Origin: a virus
Reading direction: 5' to 3' (one strand)
IMG/VR virus record: IMGVR_UViG_3300036795_000432
Span: 1-25,333 of that record
DNA length: 25,333 nucleotides
The notes under the pieces were generated by a model. That model searched no databases. It saw only the letters and a list, made by a program, of their open reading frames with translations, and had not been told where the DNA came from. This document shows positions 17,613-25,333 of this stretch, in pieces; within the stretch, counting starts at the first letter, position 1; each line of letters begins with the position of its first letter. The position numbers and the translations under genes are program-made.

Positions 17613-17989
17613 GTGACGCGCCTCTTGACCGTGAGCGTCAATTCACCCTGGCCGTCTGGCGACGTGTCGTCGATCACGAAATCGATCACCGAGCCGGGCG
17701 GAAATTCTGTCGGATCGAGGCCGACCGGCATGTTGGCGACTTGGGTCGTGATCCAGTCGCCGGGGCTTGGCGCGATCTGGAATTCGGCCAGCCGGATCGA
17801 TAGCGTCGTTTCACGGTCTGACACCACGCCGCCATCTTCGGTGATGATGTCCACTGACTTCACCGACCAGATGCCGCGCGCGGAATAGGCCGGCTGCTGC
17901 GGCTGCGAAGCGTAGGGCGTCACGACGACCGGCGCACCGAACACGTCCTGCGCAGGTGCGAGCACGAGAGCAGAGAAGTCGATGGTCAT
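17609..17989 (-). CDS. Head-tail joining protein-like
   Basis: From the ATG at 17989 the product is 126 residues. An upstream extension of the same frame lies inside the SGNH gene and is not used, because the ATG overlaps that gene's TGA (ATGA) and has AGGAC just before. The sequence (ALVLAPAQDVFGAPVVVTPY, then QPAYSARGIWSVKSVDI and REATTL-like ETTLSIRLAEF) resembles small head-tail attachment proteins of lambda FII style. These share a short beta-barrel and the DRETTL...R..EF signature. It should sit at the head-tail interface. The location between head and tail genes supports the call. Confidence 0.7.
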   Translation of the reverse strand: MTIDFSALVLAPAQDVFGAPVVVTPYASQPQQPAYSARGIWSVKSVDIITEDGGVVSDRETTLSIRLAEFQIAPSPGDWITTQVANMPVGLDPTEFPPGSVIDFVIDDTSPDGQGELTLTVKRRVT

Positions 17990-19257
17990 TGTCCTGCGGG
18001 CACCTTGCGCAAGTACGGCTTGTAGAACGTCATATCGGCTGCGACCGCGCCCGCTGAGAACGACATGACGCATTGGACGTTGTTGCTGGTATCCGCCACC
18101 GTGAGAGGCGTATTCGGCGGACAGCGCAGCACGCCGGTAAGCGCGTCGCTTGTCATGTTTCCCGCCTGAGTGTTGTTCATCGTCTGGCCGGTGTCGTTCG
18201 ACAGATAGACGCCGCGAAGATTCTGCGCGCCAGCCGCAAGCGAGAAGCCGACCCATGCTTCGTACTGGTCACCGATAGCACCCGAATACGGGACCGTGCG
18301 GCGGAAGTTGACAACGCGCGCCGCTGCGGATGCCGCGCCCGACACGACGATACGTTGCGCAGCTACACCGTCCGGTGTTATCGTCTTGGACGCCGCGATG
18401 TTAATGCCGGTGTCGTTTGTCTCCACCGTCCACAGGTTAGCGATGTTGCCGGTAACGGTCGCGCCGCCCTTGACGCCGGTCGTGCCGATCAACTCGGGAT
18501 TCATCGCCGCCGCTTCCATCATGTTGGAAGCGTCGTTGTAGAGGGACAGAACGTCGCTGCTCGCCATCCACGGGCTGAGCGCCGATTCGAAACCCTCGCC
18601 GAGAACGCGCGCGCCCGCGTAATTCGGATGCAGACCTTCACCCGTCATCGTTGTCGGATTGAACGTGGATTCGAGATCGACGACGTTCACGTCTTGCGCG
18701 GCCATCTGACCGATCAGACCGTTGAGCGTCTTCCTATCGGCTTCGCGGCTGGTGCCGAGGCCGGTCCAGGTGGCATCGTTGCGCGGCAAGACCTTGCACA
18801 CCACGACCCGCGCGCCCACGCCGCGATATGTGTTGATGCACTGCTGAATACGGCCAGCGATGACCGCCGGTGTATCCGACGTGCCGGCGAGATCGTTGGT
18901 GCCGCCGAGGAAGGTGACGACCTTCGGATTGAGCGCTGTGACTGCGTTGATGCGGGCAAGCATCTGCGCCGTCGTCGTGCCGCCTACGGCGTTATTCCAT
19001 CCATTCGGTCGAAAGTACCGACCGCCATCCGCGATCATGGCGAATTGCGACCACATCGGACCGTTCGATCCGGCTGTGATGCTGTCGCCTTCGCTGGCCA
19101 ATCGACTATGCAACGGCAGCGGCGAAAGGGGCGGGGCGACGACGGCTGGAGATCTCGCCCAGGCGCCGTCTAACCACGCGCCGGCAAGCCAAGCGCCGGG
19201 CGCCCACGCCCCCGGCGCCCAGACTTGTTGCTTCGACCAGTCGAAGAACTGCGCCAT
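17986..19257 (-). CDS. SGNH/GDSL hydrolase encoded among head genes
   Basis: This 423-residue protein starts with a tandem Trp repeat (VWAPGAW, APGAW, LAGAW, LDGAW; residues 12-33), then a Pro/Leu-rich linker. The SGNH core spans about residues 51-230. Block I EGDSITAG holds the nucleophile Ser59; block II has NNAVGG with Gly92; block III GGTNDL holds Asn121; block V GEGLHPN holds His210 with Glu207 in place of the usual Asp. The C-terminal 190 residues are beta-rich (sugar-binding-like, e.g. GDQYEAWVGFSLAAGA). SGNH enzymes deacylate sugars or lipids. Lying between the decoration-type gene and the head-tail joining gene, it may be a virion surface esterase; the substrate is unknown. Confidence 0.85.
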   Translation of the reverse strand: MAQFFDWSKQQVWAPGAWAPGAWLAGAWLDGAWARSPAVVAPPLSPLPLHSRLASEGDSITAGSNGPMWSQFAMIADGGRYFRPNGWNNAVGGTTTAQMLARINAVTALNPKVVTFLGGTNDLAGTSDTPAVIAGRIQQCINTYRGVGARVVVCKVLPRNDATWTGLGTSREADRKTLNGLIGQMAAQDVNVVDLESTFNPTTMTGEGLHPNYAGARVLGEGFESALSPWMASSDVLSLYNDASNMMEAAAMNPELIGTTGVKGGATVTGNIANLWTVETNDTGINIAASKTITPDGVAAQRIVVSGAASAAARVVNFRRTVPYSGAIGDQYEAWVGFSLAAGAQNLRGVYLSNDTGQTMNNTQAGNMTSDALTGVLRCPPNTPLTVADTSNNVQCVMSFSAGAVAADMTFYKPYLRKVPAGQ

Positions 19258-19642: not shown

Positions 19643-21868
19643 CTACGCGCCGGCATTGCGATACGTGCCGCGATAGTCGATGGCACCGCAGCCGTAGTCG
19701 TGCTCAAGAGACATGCGCACGCCCTGCAGGCCGAACGGCTCTTCCGTGCGGATGCGCGGGCCGGTCGCGCCGCCGAGGAAGCCGTACACGAAGTTGGGCA
19801 ACGCGCCCGGTTCGGCGAACAGGTACCAACTGGTGTCGGTGATGTTGGCATCCGACACCGAGCGCAGCCGACCCGAGAACGGGTTGACCGACGTGGTCAG
19901 GGTCGGAGAGATCGCCGTCACCATCTGATCGGCGGCGGTTTCCTGCGCGGGGCCGGTGAGGATGATGCGCGGCGGCACGTTGAGGAAGTTGCCCGCCAGC
20001 GACCTTTGCGCACGCATGGCCGCGCGCGCGGTGCCGATTGACGCCACGGACGGCACGCCGCCGGCACCGGCAGCGCTCGCGTTGCCATGGTTGGTGGCGT
20101 CGTAGACGTTGCGGGTGTCCTGATTGAGCACCGGCCCTGCACCAGCGTTCGCGCGGAACATGGTGAAGAAGGTGGTGTTTTCGAAGATCAACACCGCATC
20201 GCCAGCCGATCCGAGAATTTGATCGATGGCTCCCATTTCGTCGTTGACGATCATGTGCCGCGAGATCGAGAAGATCACGCCATAGGGCAGCACCGACACG
20301 GTCTCTTTGCTATCGAGCGTCGTGCCGTAACGCAGTTCTCCGGTTTCAGTGACCGGCTGCGGCTGCGGGAAGTCACCGGCGCGCACCTGCGGGTGCGGGC
20401 GGAAGTCGTTGAACGGGCGCTCGACCGAGATTTCGCGATAGGTCGGCATAGCCAACTGGTATCGCGCCAACAGCGTCTTATTCAGCGTGTTTTCGAAGAT
20501 CGCCGGGAAGTCGCTGGTCGAGTGGAAGGCGCGTTGCAGGATGTCGTAGGCCTGCGCCGGGGTGCGGATGTTGCCGCGATGGTTCAAGCACTCGGCGGCG
20601 ATCTCGACGAGGCCCATGCCGAGATACTGCCGGGTGCGGTCATATCTCGGCTTGTCGTGGCCATCATAGATGCGCCACGCAGCCGACACCTGATCGGTCA
20701 GACCGCGCATCTTGACCCACTCGGCTTGCTCGGGCGTGCGCACCGCCGGTTCGCGGCGCGAGGAAAGGACGCGAATGAGCATCGCCTCCTGCATCGCCTC
20801 GGCGCGGCCCTGGGTCTCGTCGCGGATGACTTCGAACGATGCACCGCCGCCGTTGCCGGCGCCCGCCGCGCCCTTGATCTCGGCCTCGCCCCTGGCGAGC
20901 GCGGTGATGACCTGGGCGCGGAAGGCATCGATGGTGACATCGTCCTTGATCGCGCGCTCGATCACGTCGAGCGGCATACGCGCTTCGCGGCCCGTCGCCA
21001 TGATCTCGGCGACGCGCTGGCGCTCGACCTCGACGGGGTTGCCGGAAGTATCGGCGGAACGCGAGCGGGTGCGAGTGCGCTCGAGCGAAGTGGAGCGCTG
21101 CTGCTTGTCCTCGCCTTCCTCATCCTCGTCGTCGGCCATGTCGTCCTGATCTTCGGCGTCGTCCTCTTTCTTGCTCGCCGATTGCTCGGCAGCGGCGCGC
21201 TTCCTGATCTCGTCTGCGGTCAACTCGTTGCGGACACGAGTCTTCTCACTTTTGTTTGGCATAGCGTTGCCTTTCGATGCTGTGGGCGAAGCCCGTGTGG
21301 ATTCATGCTGGCGCACATACGCGTCCGCCTCGGCGGCAATTGGCGCGATGCTGACCTCTAATGGCTCCCAATCGACCGCCGTCCGCGTCTCTGGCGAACT
21401 TCGCGTGTTTCGAACTTCGCGATGCGTGCGGTAGCCAGCCGACACGTTCATGCGAATGCCATCGGCAAGGTCTTGCGCGAGGCGCACGGCCTTCGCGCTG
21501 CCCCGCGATAGCTGGATGCGCGCGAGCAACTTGCCGTCTTCGATGCGGGCAGTACCGGGGATGACACCGCCGAGCATGGAATCGATGCCATCGTGATAGT
21601 TATGGCCGTCGAGCAGCGGTGCGCCGGCATTCAGCCGGGCAAGCCGCACCGATTTGGGCGAGATATCGAGGACTTCATCCCACTCCTCGCCCGACCACAT
21701 ATCGCGGCGGCGCACGGCGGCGCCGGTCGAGATCATCACATCTGCGGTGCGCGTCTTCGCATCGTAGGTGTTCTTCGCGCCGCTGATCGTCATGTCGCGA
21801 TGACGAATCTCGCTATCTTCTTCGGTGCTCTCGTTGCGGCTCGGTGCGTCCGAAGTTTTCGAAGGCAT
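19643..21868 (-). CDS. Prohead protease-scaffold-major capsid fusion protein
   Basis: From the ATG at 21868 (GGAG 6 bases upstream; further upstream in-frame Met codons lack such a site) the product is 741 residues. Residues 1-190 are an S78-like prohead protease: PLLDGHNY with likely catalytic His89, RMNVSAGY with Ser143, and the family end LEVSIAPIAAEADAYV. Residues about 203-366 are a highly charged scaffold-like part (DEDEEGEDKQQ, VERQRVAEIM). Residues about 366-741 are an HK97-type capsid protein with IRTPAQAYDILQRAF, YGVIFSISRHMIVNDEMGAI, PPRIILTGPAQET and LEHDYGCGAIDYRGTYRN. The fusion layout is known in some phages; self-cleavage should release the mature capsid subunit. Confidence 0.92.
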   Translation of the reverse strand: MPSKTSDAPSRNESTEEDSEIRHRDMTISGAKNTYDAKTRTADVMISTGAAVRRRDMWSGEEWDEVLDISPKSVRLARLNAGAPLLDGHNYHDGIDSMLGGVIPGTARIEDGKLLARIQLSRGSAKAVRLAQDLADGIRMNVSAGYRTHREVRNTRSSPETRTAVDWEPLEVSIAPIAAEADAYVRQHESTRASPTASKGNAMPNKSEKTRVRNELTADEIRKRAAAEQSASKKEDDAEDQDDMADDEDEEGEDKQQRSTSLERTRTRSRSADTSGNPVEVERQRVAEIMATGREARMPLDVIERAIKDDVTIDAFRAQVITALARGEAEIKGAAGAGNGGGASFEVIRDETQGRAEAMQEAMLIRVLSSRREPAVRTPEQAEWVKMRGLTDQVSAAWRIYDGHDKPRYDRTRQYLGMGLVEIAAECLNHRGNIRTPAQAYDILQRAFHSTSDFPAIFENTLNKTLLARYQLAMPTYREISVERPFNDFRPHPQVRAGDFPQPQPVTETGELRYGTTLDSKETVSVLPYGVIFSISRHMIVNDEMGAIDQILGSAGDAVLIFENTTFFTMFRANAGAGPVLNQDTRNVYDATNHGNASAAGAGGVPSVASIGTARAAMRAQRSLAGNFLNVPPRIILTGPAQETAADQMVTAISPTLTTSVNPFSGRLRSVSDANITDTSWYLFAEPGALPNFVYGFLGGATGPRIRTEEPFGLQGVRMSLEHDYGCGAIDYRGTYRNAGA
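21262..21274 (-). promoter_or_regulatory. Candidate internal start for scaffold-capsid product
   Basis: Inside the fusion gene an ATG at 21262 (Met203) is preceded at 7 bases by AAAGG. It opens with MPNKSEKTRV right at the border between protease and scaffold parts. Use of this start would give a 539-residue scaffold-capsid protein without the protease. Confidence 0.4.
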
Positions 21869-21936
21869 AACGATCTCCATACGGAAACGGGCCGGGCACG
21901 GCGGTGCCAGGGCGTCACAGCGGATTGTCGATGTGG

Positions 21937-22179
21937 TTAGTCTTGCTGCGCCTTGCGCTTCGCGAGCCACGTGGCGCGGTGCTTGTCGCGAATGGGAGCC
22001 ATCAGCTTTTCGTCGATTGGCGGTGCAGGCGCGCGCAAGCCACGGAGCCGGTCACCGCTCGCGATGATCGGCTCATGCAGGTCGGCGTCCTGCTTGTTGC
22101 CGTCATCGTCGAGATAGAAGAACTCGTCACTGGCTTGGGGCTGTTGCGGCGGCAGGTTTTGCTTTTCCGACATAGGCAT
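21937..22179 (-). CDS. Small hydrophilic protein between portal and protease genes
   Basis: This 80-residue protein starts at 22179 (or at the second ATG at 22173) and overlaps the 3' end of the portal gene by about 50 bases in another frame. It is rich in Gln/Pro/Asp/Lys with a DEFFYLDDDGNKQDADLHEP segment, then PAPPIDEKLMAPIRDKHRA and a basic end (WLAKRKAQQ). No family is recognised. No strong ribosome binding site is visible; coupling to the portal gene is likely. A small head-assembly or accessory role fits the position. Confidence 0.6.
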   Translation of the reverse strand: MPMSEKQNLPPQQPQASDEFFYLDDDGNKQDADLHEPIIASGDRLRGLRAPAPPIDEKLMAPIRDKHRATWLAKRKAQQD

Positions 22180-25100
22180 TGAAACGGTCCATCGACTCTT
22201 TGTCGTTGAGGTTCAATTCGCCGTACCAATTGGTGCCGAGCAACAAGTCCTTGCCTTGCGGGCTATCGGCGATGGCCCACACCGCTTTCGGATTGCTGCT
22301 CGCGGCGAGCTTGGTCAGATCGTCGGTCTGGGTCGGCGCGGCCTCGACGGGCGGCTGCTCTTCGCCGTCGTCTTCCTCATCGTCGGGCAGGTCGTACTCG
22401 GGCAACAAGCCATTGCGCTCGGCCTGCCGGTAACGCTCATCGTCATCCATCTGATCCCAGTATTCTTCCTGATACTCGGCCACGCTCTCGGCGAGATATT
22501 CCGGAGGGTCGATGTCTTGGGCGTCGCTCTCGGCCTTGTCGTTGAAGGCCTTGGTCAGCACGTCGGTGATCTCTTCGCGCATGCGGTCGGTCAGATGTGC
22601 GGACAGATCGGGCGCCTCGATGCCCGGCAGGTTCATCTGCTCGGGCGGCGGTGCGTTGCTCGGCTCTTTCAGCTTATCGTCATCGAAGGTGAACTCGGGG
22701 TCTTTGCTGCCCTCATATCCGGTCTGGTACTCTTCAATCGACAGCGCATTGAGCAACTGTTCGTTGGTGTAGGGGATGCCGTCGTCATCGTGACGGAATT
22801 CATCGAGCGCTTCGACCGCCCACTCTGCGCCGCTGTCGAAGTTCTGCGCGAGCGAATACTTCGCGTCGTCGAGGGCCTGCCCGTTCTCGCGCCAGCTCGT
22901 CACTTCGTTGTCGTAGAACTCGCTGCGCGTTTCGTGCATCCAGCGGTCGCGAATGTCGGCCTGATCCGACTCGTTGATCTCATCCCAGCTTTCCGGTGTG
23001 TAGCCGTTGCCGGTTCTGCCGGTGCTGCTGGTGCGGCGGCTACTGCCAAGCCCGCGCGCGATCTCGCCCGACAGCGACGACCACGATTGCCGCGTCGGCA
23101 CATAGCCGTACTTCGCCCAGGCGTAACCGCCGACATCGATGTTCGCGTGCACCTTGACGCGCTCGATGCCGAGCCGCCGATAGAGATCGACGTTGCCGGC
23201 GAGCACGCGCTTGCCGATGTCGTTGCGCCGGGAATCCCTATTGAGTTGGAAATATGCGCTCTCGGCGACCTTGTTGCGGAAGTCGATGCTGCGCGTGTAG
23301 TCGCCGATGGACTTGCCGTCTGGCCCGAGGATTTTGCCGGTGACGTGCCAGTGATCGCTGCCGGCGCGATCAATCGTCATGGTCGCATCGACGCCGCCGA
23401 GGAAGTCGTGCTTGAAGTCTTCGGGAGACATACCGCCGAGGTTCTTATCCCATTCGTCGGCCAGCAACGCGACGCCGGTATCGTTGGCGGTAAGATTGAT
23501 CTTCGCCTTGGTGAAGTCCTCGCGCTTGAGCTTGGTTTTTGTCTTCTTGTCGCTCGACGATGCCGTGCTCGCTGGCGCCGGTGCGCTCGGCTTGGCTGTC
23601 GTCTGCGCTGCCGGCGCAGCGGAGGCCGGCGCGCTGCTGCTCGCCTTGGGATTCTGCTTGGACACCTTCGGCGAGGCGGCGGCGTCAGACGTACCGCTGC
23701 TTCCGCCTGTCCCGCCACCACCGCCATCACCGCCGCCCGCGTCGGTCCAGCGGCCATCTTCATCGCGCGGCTGGTTCGGATCGAATTCACGCGAATGATC
23801 GCTGGCACGTGCACCGCCGTCGCCGTCGTTGCTCAGCGAGTCGAGATCGATCTGATTGCCGCTCTCGTCGTACAGTTCGGGGCCGGCGCCACCACCATTG
23901 CCATCGCCATCACCGCCACCGGGGCCGCCGGCAGGGTCACCCGGCTCCTTCGGCGCCGGCTGCGCGGAGCCGGCCCGCGTGCGCGTGCGCGGATCGATAT
24001 CGAACACCACGCCCTTGGAGTCGCAGTATTCGTTGAACTCGGACCAATCGTCTACGATCTGCTGCCAATCGTTGCCCCACTCGGCGATGTACTGCTGCGG
24101 CGACTGCCGACCGGAGCGCACCACGTGCTGCTCGGCGTCGTAGTCGAACTTAGGATTGACCGCTGCCCATGCCGGTGTGACCCAGTCGCACTGATAGCCC
24201 TTGGCGCGCTCTTTCAATTCGCCGGCAATGATCCCGCGCGAGATAAACCGATCCCAGATCGGCTGACACATCTGCGGAATGATCGTGTGCTGCTGCAGTT
24301 CTTCGACCAGCGCACGGAAGTCGAGCTTGCCGGCGCGCAGCGAAGAGTAGTTCGCTTGCCTGAGATCGCCCGAAAGCTGGTCGTAGGTGATGCCCAGGCC
24401 GGCGGCGAAGGCCATCAGGCCGAACAGCAGCATCGGCTCGACCTGCGTCGCCGTCGTCGGCTGCGCAAACTTGATATCCTGGCCGGTGCGCAATTCCTTG
24501 ATCATGCCCGGTTCAAGGGTCGTGACCAGCGCGTCGGGATTGGACGCGCTCGAATAGCCGCTACCGAAGCCTGCGGACTGATCGAGCAGCGGCGACGTTT
24601 CGTCGGAATTCGTCACAAACGCTGCAAAACATGCTTCGACTTTCGCTTTGACGCGCACGGCGTCGATAAAATCGCTCAAATCCTGCGCGGTGATGATTAC
24701 GGGCGCGAACCACGATACGCCGCGCACCTGACCGGGCCGCGCCTGCGAAAACATATGCAGCACGGTGTCGCTCGGATAGAATTTCGAGAGCGCCGACTGC
24801 ACGGTGTAGGTCGTGTATTCGCCGGGGTGCCACGGCCACAGCCACAGGCCGGTGCGGCGGTCGAATTCGCCGAGGCCAACGCCAAGGCGCGAGCGTTCGG
24901 TGTCGCGCGTGAGGCCTTCTTCGGGGCTACCCTGATAATAGCCGTCGCGTGACTCGTCGATGAAGTCGGCTTCGAGCAATTGCAGCCGCAGCGGCACGCG
25001 CGAGGATGTGTTGCCCGGCTTCTGGTCGATCATGCGGCAGACGATCTCGCCGCTTTCGATCATCGAGCGCAGCGCCAGTGCCTGCATCGCCGGAAACGAC

Positions 25101-25333
25101 AGGCGGCCCTCGACATCGCAGGACTTCTCCCACGCCCTCCACAACTCGGTCACGCGCTTGTTCAAGCCGGATGAGCCAGTGCGCGGCACCGGGCGCAAGC
25201 CCGTGCCGATGGCCTGCGACACGATGATGTCCATGGCGCGCTTGGCGTGCGGCGTGTTGCGCACGAGTTCGCGCGCGCGGTCGCGCAGCGGTTTGAGCGC
25301 GCTGCTGATCTCGGTATTGGCCGAGGATTGCCG
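22127..25333 (-). CDS. Portal protein (lambda B type) fused to GNAT-like domain, 5' partial
   Basis: The frame stays open to the window edge, so the start is missing; residues counted from the GTG at 25264 are 1045, with 23 more before it. Residues 1-about 420 are a lambda-B-type portal: ELVRNTPHAKRAMDII, ALRSMIESGEIVCRMI, YPSDTVLHMFSQARPGQVRG, SGDLRQANYSSLRAG and DWVTPAWAAVNP. A low-complexity linker (430-582) contains FDPNQPRDEDGRW. Residues about 585-725 resemble a GNAT acetyltransferase: YFQLN, RRNDIGKRVL and LYRRLGIERVKVHAN then GGYAWAKYGYVP. An acidic part and a short Trp/Asn-rich end (LLLGTNWYGELNLND) follow. Portal proteins are normally about 500 residues. The portal identity is sure; the acetyltransferase activity is not. 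Confidence 0.9.
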   Translation of the reverse strand, partial: RQSSANTEISSALKPLRDRARELVRNTPHAKRAMDIIVSQAIGTGLRPVPRTGSSGLNKRVTELWRAWEKSCDVEGRLSFPAMQALALRSMIESGEIVCRMIDQKPGNTSSRVPLRLQLLEADFIDESRDGYYQGSPEEGLTRDTERSRLGVGLGEFDRRTGLWLWPWHPGEYTTYTVQSALSKFYPSDTVLHMFSQARPGQVRGVSWFAPVIITAQDLSDFIDAVRVKAKVEACFAAFVTNSDETSPLLDQSAGFGSGYSSASNPDALVTTLEPGMIKELRTGQDIKFAQPTTATQVEPMLLFGLMAFAAGLGITYDQLSGDLRQANYSSLRAGKLDFRALVEELQQHTIIPQMCQPIWDRFISRGIIAGELKERAKGYQCDWVTPAWAAVNPKFDYDAEQHVVRSGRQSPQQYIAEWGNDWQQIVDDWSEFNEYCDSKGVVFDIDPRTRTRAGSAQPAPKEPGDPAGGPGGGDGDGNGGGAGPELYDESGNQIDLDSLSNDGDGGARASDHSREFDPNQPRDEDGRWTDAGGGDGGGGGTGGSSGTSDAAASPKVSKQNPKASSSAPASAAPAAQTTAKPSAPAPASTASSSDKKTKTKLKREDFTKAKINLTANDTGVALLADEWDKNLGGMSPEDFKHDFLGGVDATMTIDRAGSDHWHVTGKILGPDGKSIGDYTRSIDFRNKVAESAYFQLNRDSRRNDIGKRVLAGNVDLYRRLGIERVKVHANIDVGGYAWAKYGYVPTRQSWSSLSGEIARGLGSSRRTSSTGRTGNGYTPESWDEINESDQADIRDRWMHETRSEFYDNEVTSWRENGQALDDAKYSLAQNFDSGAEWAVEALDEFRHDDDGIPYTNEQLLNALSIEEYQTGYEGSKDPEFTFDDDKLKEPSNAPPPEQMNLPGIEAPDLSAHLTDRMREEITDVLTKAFNDKAESDAQDIDPPEYLAESVAEYQEEYWDQMDDDERYRQAERNGLLPEYDLPDDEEDDGEEQPPVEAAPTQTDDLTKLAASSNPKAVWAIADSPQGKDLLLGTNWYGELNLNDKESMDRFNAYVGKAKPAAATAPSQ

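Follow-up and report, generated by a model that had tools for sequence, protein, structure and literature searches.

Background

Polyvalent proteins are multi-domain proteins of phages and conjugative elements, which are encoded near packaging genes and presumed to be delivered together with the DNA; in the available text of the report describing them they include GNATs (two RimI-like families), ADP-ribosyltransferases (ARTs), ParB-like and RelA/SpoT domains, and PBECR, 2H and InPase domains are reported to be fused to portals (Iyer et al. 2017, PMC5512222). Another described system that is close to the present case is the MuF polymorphic toxins (Jamet et al. 2017, PMC5576092). We report that a soil-phage record of 25,333 bases (IMG/VR IMGVR_UViG_3300036795_000432; "the window" refers to this whole stretch of DNA) encodes a lambda-B-type portal and a predicted GNAT-like acetyltransferase domain on one polypeptide chain, and that the same module is carried by 55 IMG/VR loci, frequently together with a small protein that we refer to as EFFY.

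Results

A portal and a GNAT-like module on one chain

The genes of the portal-GNAT region are all located on the minus strand (coordinates in Table 1). An original prediction, based on the letters of the window and a list of its open reading frames (ORFs), stated that a single frame joins a lambda-B-type portal to approximately 600 further residues, and this was confirmed: the frame 22127-25333 (1068 amino acids) matches PF05136 (E = 9.5e-91, residues 2-347, 305 bits vs a curated cut-off of 32.9) and TIGR01539 (8e-76, residues 3-446, 255 bits vs 172.7), which places it in the lambda-type portal family, and its phrog_21 match spans residues 2-468. The frame reaches the right end of the window, and alignment to the related locus L003 indicates that approximately 45 N-terminal portal residues are missing. 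The MuF domain PF04233 is absent from the window protein as judged by a Pfam scan, and present in distant relatives of its GNAT. The portal is followed by a linker rich in Gly, Ala, Ser and Pro, which contains FDPNQPRDEDGRWT and a motif referred to below as the PRDExGRW tag (FDPNQPRDEDGRW), and thereafter by a conserved module of approximately 470 residues (residues 605-1068).

An assembly or frameshift error that joins two genes had been named beforehand as a finding that would speak against the fusion. The contig 3300036829_000003 (L002), which comes from a separate assembly, is 100% identical across the join, and L003 retains the fusion in frame and without stops at 83% portal and 80% extension identity. 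Moreover, the dN/dS ratios between the window and L003 (0.19 for the portal and 0.25 for the extension) correspond to purifying selection, and we therefore conclude that the frame has been kept by selection and is not an error. The two ORFs of the sister phages L005 and L006 (portals 55-56% identical) could be taken to suggest an artefact; however, given the identity of L002 through the join, the 17-20% divergence of the still fused L003, and the independent fusion of other portal types to the module, we regard an artefact as extremely improbable.

In L005 and L006 the portal and the GNAT are encoded by adjacent, overlapping genes, and two overlapping ORFs are likely to represent the ancestral state. 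The simplest history of the window fusion would then be that an effector gene, situated directly downstream of the portal gene and overlapping it, lost the intervening stop. The GNAT start in L006 overlaps the portal stop, and short start-stop overlaps are present in other loci too; in L005 the only candidate GNAT start at the tag is a CTG that overlaps the portal stop. Inspection of L005:7824-7848 revealed no ATG, GTG or TTG before 8190, which lies inside the domain, such that the GNAT would have to be translated either from a CTG or by way of a frameshift out of the portal gene.

The module is fused to lambda-type portals (the window, L003 and L041), to Phage_portal_3 (L034 and L035) and to an HK97-type portal (L049), and to MuF proteins in L054, L055, L056 and Alteromonas phage R7M. 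The joins in L041, L034/L035 and L049 are independent of the window fusion. On a 50-row tree, in which the unfused L005/L006 form the sister pair, no fewer than four changes of the portal-fusion label are required, as forced by the starred branches, a count that does not separate gain from loss. Separately, in L048:6969-11114 the GNAT frame is devoid of the usual stop and continues through a second tag into a protease-major capsid protein, which represents either a real read-through or an indel; this locus was not counted as a fusion, the EFFY ORF being in another frame and the joining stretch looking untranslated.

The core of the module is predicted to have a GNAT fold

The GNAT-like fold that had been anticipated from the sequence was borne out by structure prediction. 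Models generated with AlphaFold for the window module (predicted local distance difference test, pLDDT, 82) and for the compact relative L071, which has no acidic insert (pLDDT 88.9, predicted template modelling score 0.84), both had GNATs or GNAT-containing proteins as top solved structures among the matches listed (Foldseek and VIA-align). The best VIA-align Z-scores were 8.9 (2z10; root-mean-square deviation, rmsd, 6.3; 143 residues aligned) and 8.1 (8gxk_D; rmsd 4.0; 135 aligned). At the level of profiles the result was divided: the window protein has no Pfam family above cut-off besides the portal and no GNAT model, but weak GNAT matches recur among its relatives. Specifically, 41 modules were aligned over their length, and GNAT models are the commonest weak Pfam matches in this family (Acetyltransf_10 in 9 of 41 members, best 0.0042), with a GNAT profile match of 3.1e-4 for the MuF-linked relative L056/L071; none of the relatives reached the Pfam GNAT gathering score (best 21.1 bits vs a cut-off of 23.6). 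A chance resemblance to GNATs was rejected on the basis of the fold and family evidence, and the module core is, according to these models, a divergent GNAT acetyltransferase fold. The Z-scores of NatD-, PA3270- and TacT/AtaT-like structures differ by no more than about two units and thus single out no acetylation target, and prediction of a substrate from the structural neighbours was abandoned.

The domain had been placed at 23090-23512, which agrees with residues ~605-760 (23521-23054) of the minus-strand gene; what has to be revised is its extent, as the fold is completed by the extreme C-terminus. Similarly, the acidic region expected after the GNAT domain is present (residues 766-1005), but the segment beyond it belongs to the enzyme domain. 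The structural alignment range within the module reaches the C-terminus (39-469), and in compact relatives, from which the acidic insert (~240 residues) is missing, the C-terminal segment follows soon after the GNAT core. The models hence predict that the last GNAT strand is supplied from beyond the insert. As a side observation, a minus-strand ORF in L108 lacks the GNAT core but has the acidic insert, which is located between the tag and an ART-like C-terminus.

The presumed coenzyme A (CoA) loop of the window has R-x-x-D-x-G where the GNAT pattern is Q/R-x-x-G-x-G/A; the canonical R/Q-x-x-G-x-G is present in some family members, and distant relatives mostly have the canonical QGxGxxK. Position 705 is D in 17, G in 13, N in 10 and S in one of the 41 relatives, G707 is found in 40 of the 41 rows and K708 in all of them. 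Loops of this kind have a backbone shape that Gly, Asn and Asp can all accommodate. Considering this variation, the kept Gly and Lys and the tolerance of the residues, the Asp is no sign of lost CoA binding, and the proposal that it makes binding weak or lost was not upheld. The beta5-alpha4 block contains GGYAWAKYGYVP, i.e. residues 735-746 of the window protein.

The tag precedes the GNAT core and many unrelated domains

Neither an in-frame ATG nor a Shine-Dalgarno-like site was found in the linker of the window and of L003, and translation of the GNAT alone from an internal start was accordingly rejected. The tag reads [FYW]D[PE]xxxPRDExGRW or, alternatively, HPRxxxGxxxGGQF, and a Gly-rich stretch comes after it. 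In 40 of 51 relatives it is located 17-88 residues upstream of the GNAT, compared to 0.2% in shuffles, where the tag expression was tuned by eye on the same 51 relatives that were counted. A pattern scan that was blind to the GNAT showed that the tag precedes many unrelated domains (by eye ART-like, ParB-like and Zeta-like); Zeta toxin behind the tag was confirmed by Pfam in L031 and L033. Among 76 tag-bearing stretches fetched, 37 have a detectable head or packaging gene, and in seven a portal, MuF or protease-capsid forms part of the tagged ORF itself.

We also noted runs of ORFs (L018, L022, L066, L069, L100 and L110-L185), each of which consists of a short basic helix, the PRDExGRW/GGQF tag, a Gly-rich stretch and a differing effector-like domain: Zeta toxin, ParB-like or ART-like and, by eye, RelA/SpoT-like, JAB-like, topoisomerase IB-like or metallopeptidase-like. 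These tagged runs look like a general marker of phage head-linked effectors. A second GNAT-looking type of domain (GGRRLDAFDTxLPxLYxxxGFxxVAR...PDVVFMxxD) is found behind the same tag in L065, L069:10367-12022, L086, L022 and L047, and in L065 it stands in tandem with a module of the portal-GNAT family. Furthermore, L062:5113-8532 is a single ORF of 1140 amino acids that comprises an EFFY-like start, the tag, a ParB-like domain, an S78 protease and a capsid protein.

A small protein encoded next to the module

EFFY relatives are present beside the GNAT module in 34 loci, where their genes mostly overlap its stop. A DNA pattern for EFFY...D..LH, also blind to the GNAT, matched 19 stretches in 2.9 million contigs, and in all 19, some of which were read from an overlapping locus of the same contig, the module is directly upstream. 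With a looser pattern we obtained 20 stretches, all having the module except L098, and this match was discarded as a chance ORF of seven residues; divergent EFFY proteins without a GNAT could escape both patterns. In L049 the EFFY domain is fused in cis to the portal-GNAT, and in L009, L011, L031 and L069 it forms the N-terminus of the next tagged effector. L088 (4892 and 6478) has tandem GNAT modules with an EFFY domain at the N-terminus of the second. The EFFY protein showed no Pfam family above chance and no PHROG, and no search was aimed at ribbon-helix-helix proteins.

Distribution and neighbouring genes

The same-strand genes downstream of the module include those for the EFFY protein, for a fusion of protease and major capsid protein and for a GDSL lipase-like protein, and also tail sheath and tape measure genes. 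A full-length module is present in the Bradyrhizobium genome L069, and a search of 266 Bradyrhizobium genomes gave the full module in two and the insert only in two. Compact forms occur in Flavobacterium, Dyadobacter, Lutibacter, Pararobbsia and others. The compact form in Alteromonas phage R7M is the N-terminus of a minor head protein whose gene follows that of the portal; the main text of the R7M report, as far as available, names no GNAT-bearing ORF in its virion data. Compact relatives outside head genes are carried by a Skermanella plasmid and by a very large multidomain protein of a Micromonosporaceae metagenome-assembled genome (MAG). The Skermanella gene (L106:4663-7229) is flanked by insertion sequences and overlapped by a downstream gene of 211 amino acids, a layout resembling that of toxin and immunity genes. 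Partner domains on GNAT chains include MuF, Zeta toxin, ART and DUF7178.

Table 1. Features of the portal-GNAT region in the window
Feature	Residues or length	Coordinates	Strand	Basis or remark
Portal-GNAT fusion ORF	1068 aa	22127..25333	-	No stop inside; N-terminus cut by contig end
Lambda-B-type portal	1-459	23957..25333	-	PF05136, TIGR01539, phrog_21
Low-complexity linker	460-604	23522..23956	-	62% G/S/A/P/T
Tag FDPNQPRDEDGRW	517-529	23747..23785	-	Equivalent position upstream of GNAT in relatives
GNAT core (predicted)	605-760	23054..23521	-	41-row alignment, AlphaFold model, fold searches, compact relative
Presumed CoA pyrophosphate loop RRNDIGKRVL (R-x-x-D-x-G-K)	702-711	23201..23230	-	Column counts in alignment
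Beta5-alpha4 block ANIDVGGYAWAKYGYVPT	730-747	23093..23146	-	Nearly invariant in 41 rows
Acidic, mostly helical insert	766-1005	22319..23038	-	68 D/E, 19 K/R
Conserved C-terminal segment (PKAxWAIADSxxGKxLLLGTxWxGxLxLxD...RFxAYV)	1008-1057	22163..22312	-	Predicted last GNAT strand
Small EFFY protein	80 aa	21937..22179	-	Overlaps end of GNAT ORF
Fused head protease / major capsid protein	775 aa	19643..21970	-	PF25209 1.2e-45; phrog_4523 3.9e-159
GDSL lipase-like protein		17986-19257	-	Between capsid and tail genes; PF13472 2.1e-23; phrog_6102 9e-49

Discussion

We propose that the portal-GNAT is, with reasonable though far from full probability, a polyvalent, head-delivered acetyltransferase, such that the portal also serves to carry an effector packaged in the head. 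The C-termini of the P22 portal are thought to form an inward-pointing barrel, according to the available part of PMC4992974; with a similar orientation assumed here, the GNAT modules would sit inside the head, and a 12-subunit portal ring would hold the C-termini, and up to 12 GNAT modules, within the capsid. The module would co-assemble with the portal and might either be set free by a proteolytic cut in the linker, close to the PRDExGRW tag, or be displayed on a tether. A free GNAT would require proteolysis, since the linker has no usable internal start, and a candidate protease would be the head protease (19643-21970) encoded two genes downstream. The module would then enter the host together with the DNA and, early in infection, acetylate a host cytoplasmic target, and the EFFY protein would most likely bind the module, either inhibiting it and so protecting the producing cell or serving as a loading factor. 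We favour delivery and acetylation in the host because of the effector company that the module keeps and the precedents of the polyvalent proteins (PMC5512222) and the MuF toxins (PMC5576092). Likewise, finding the tag before Zeta-toxin, ART-like and ParB-like domains near head genes is as expected for polyvalent effectors, going by the available text of PMC5512222.

Several observations weigh against this proposal. Searches of the PDB with sequence only returned nothing significant, and VIA-align Z-scores of 8-9 are modest and hence support the fold, not the function. An invariant Trp739 occupies the position at which GNATs usually have the catalytic Tyr (four before G-F/Y), with a Tyr two residues earlier, as judged from sequence spacing, and the chemistry may therefore differ. 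Proteolytic release is a guess, and the tag was not seen in the protease-major capsid protein of the window itself. To our knowledge, there is no direct precedent for the ejection of a portal-tethered domain.

The Trp and the Asp in place of the first CoA-loop Gly, together with the weak Pfam scores, could also mean that the GNAT domain is a non-catalytic remnant retained for binding only, but the variation of the loop position (G/D/N/S) across a family that keeps the following Gly and Lys, the nearly invariant beta5-alpha4 block, QGxGxxK in distant relatives and the purifying selection make this improbable. It is similarly unlikely that the GNAT acts in the producing cell during head assembly and is never delivered, i.e. 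that it is anchored to the portal and has a head protein of the phage or a factor of the host as its substrate, or that it spaces or nucleates the portal. Such a role would agree with the direct fusions to portals and MuF proteins, and the strongly acidic insert could suit scaffold contacts; however, the majority of relatives are stand-alone proteins, the domains with which the module keeps company (Zeta-toxin, ART-like and ParB-like) are typical of effectors, and the compact relatives of the Skermanella plasmid and the Micromonosporaceae MAG lie outside head genes.

The module might instead be a toxin that EFFY counteracts as antitoxin or immunity protein, and the pair might act in competition between prophage and host or between phages, as MuF polymorphic toxins do. 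Here the constant presence of a small gene directly downstream, the tRNA-acetylating toxins TacT, AtaT and KacT among the structural matches (Z 6.3-6.5) and the full-length members in Bradyrhizobium genomes all fit. We nevertheless consider this doubtful, since non-toxin GNATs score equally well and since EFFY, present also in cis with the portal-GNAT (L049) and at the N-terminus of next tagged effectors, is more adaptor-like.

Going beyond delivery of the GNAT itself, the portal-GNAT may be one case of an undescribed modular head-loading system, a possibility that we put forward tentatively. Many unrelated effectors, linked by small EFFY adaptors, would each be preceded by a generic N-terminal tag ([FYW]DPxxPRDExGRW or HPRxxxGxxxGGQF, then Gly-rich), and could thereby be exchanged among portal, MuF and protease-capsid fusions and stand-alone proteins. 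With the recurrent tag and the EFFY partner as sequence handles, metagenomes can be searched for such cargo, and the loading of proteins into phage heads, which is still poorly understood, can be put to the test. Moreover, should the head indeed carry the module, the portal would be both DNA gate and effector carrier at fixed copy number, and would provide a defined enzyme dose per infection.

Compared to known systems, the window protein belongs to the lambda gpB portal family (PF05136, TIGR01539) with a full-length, strongly scoring portal domain, and differs by its ~600 extra C-terminal residues. With the GNAT superfamily (RimI/RimL, NatD and PA3270; TacT, AtaT and KacT) it shares the predicted fold, a CoA-loop-like pattern and the beta5-alpha4 block, whereas the Asp at the first loop Gly, the apparent Trp for the usual Tyr and the 240-residue acidic insert before the last strand set it apart. 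As in MuF polymorphic toxins, an effector directly downstream of the portal gene is followed by a small ORF, and distant relatives of the window GNAT reside on MuF proteins, but the carrier here is a portal without a MuF domain, and PMC5576092 mentions no acetyltransferase. Polyvalent proteins are resembled in that disparate domains, portal and GNAT, share a chain beside the protease-major capsid protein; a GNAT on a portal, the GNAT family of the window with its acidic insert, the partner protein EFFY and the PRDExGRW tag have no mention in the available text of PMC5512222 (0 matches for GRW/GRF). No report of the tag or of a portal-acetyltransferase fusion was found in the literature searched. 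Portals with effector-like domains (PBECR, 2H and InPase) and GNATs in polyvalent proteins have already been published, in so far as the available text of PMC5512222 covers them, and new relative to the literature searched are the portal-GNAT fusion, a GNAT family whose last strand is predicted to be split off, the EFFY protein as constant partner of this family and the tag that is shared with other effector-like domains.

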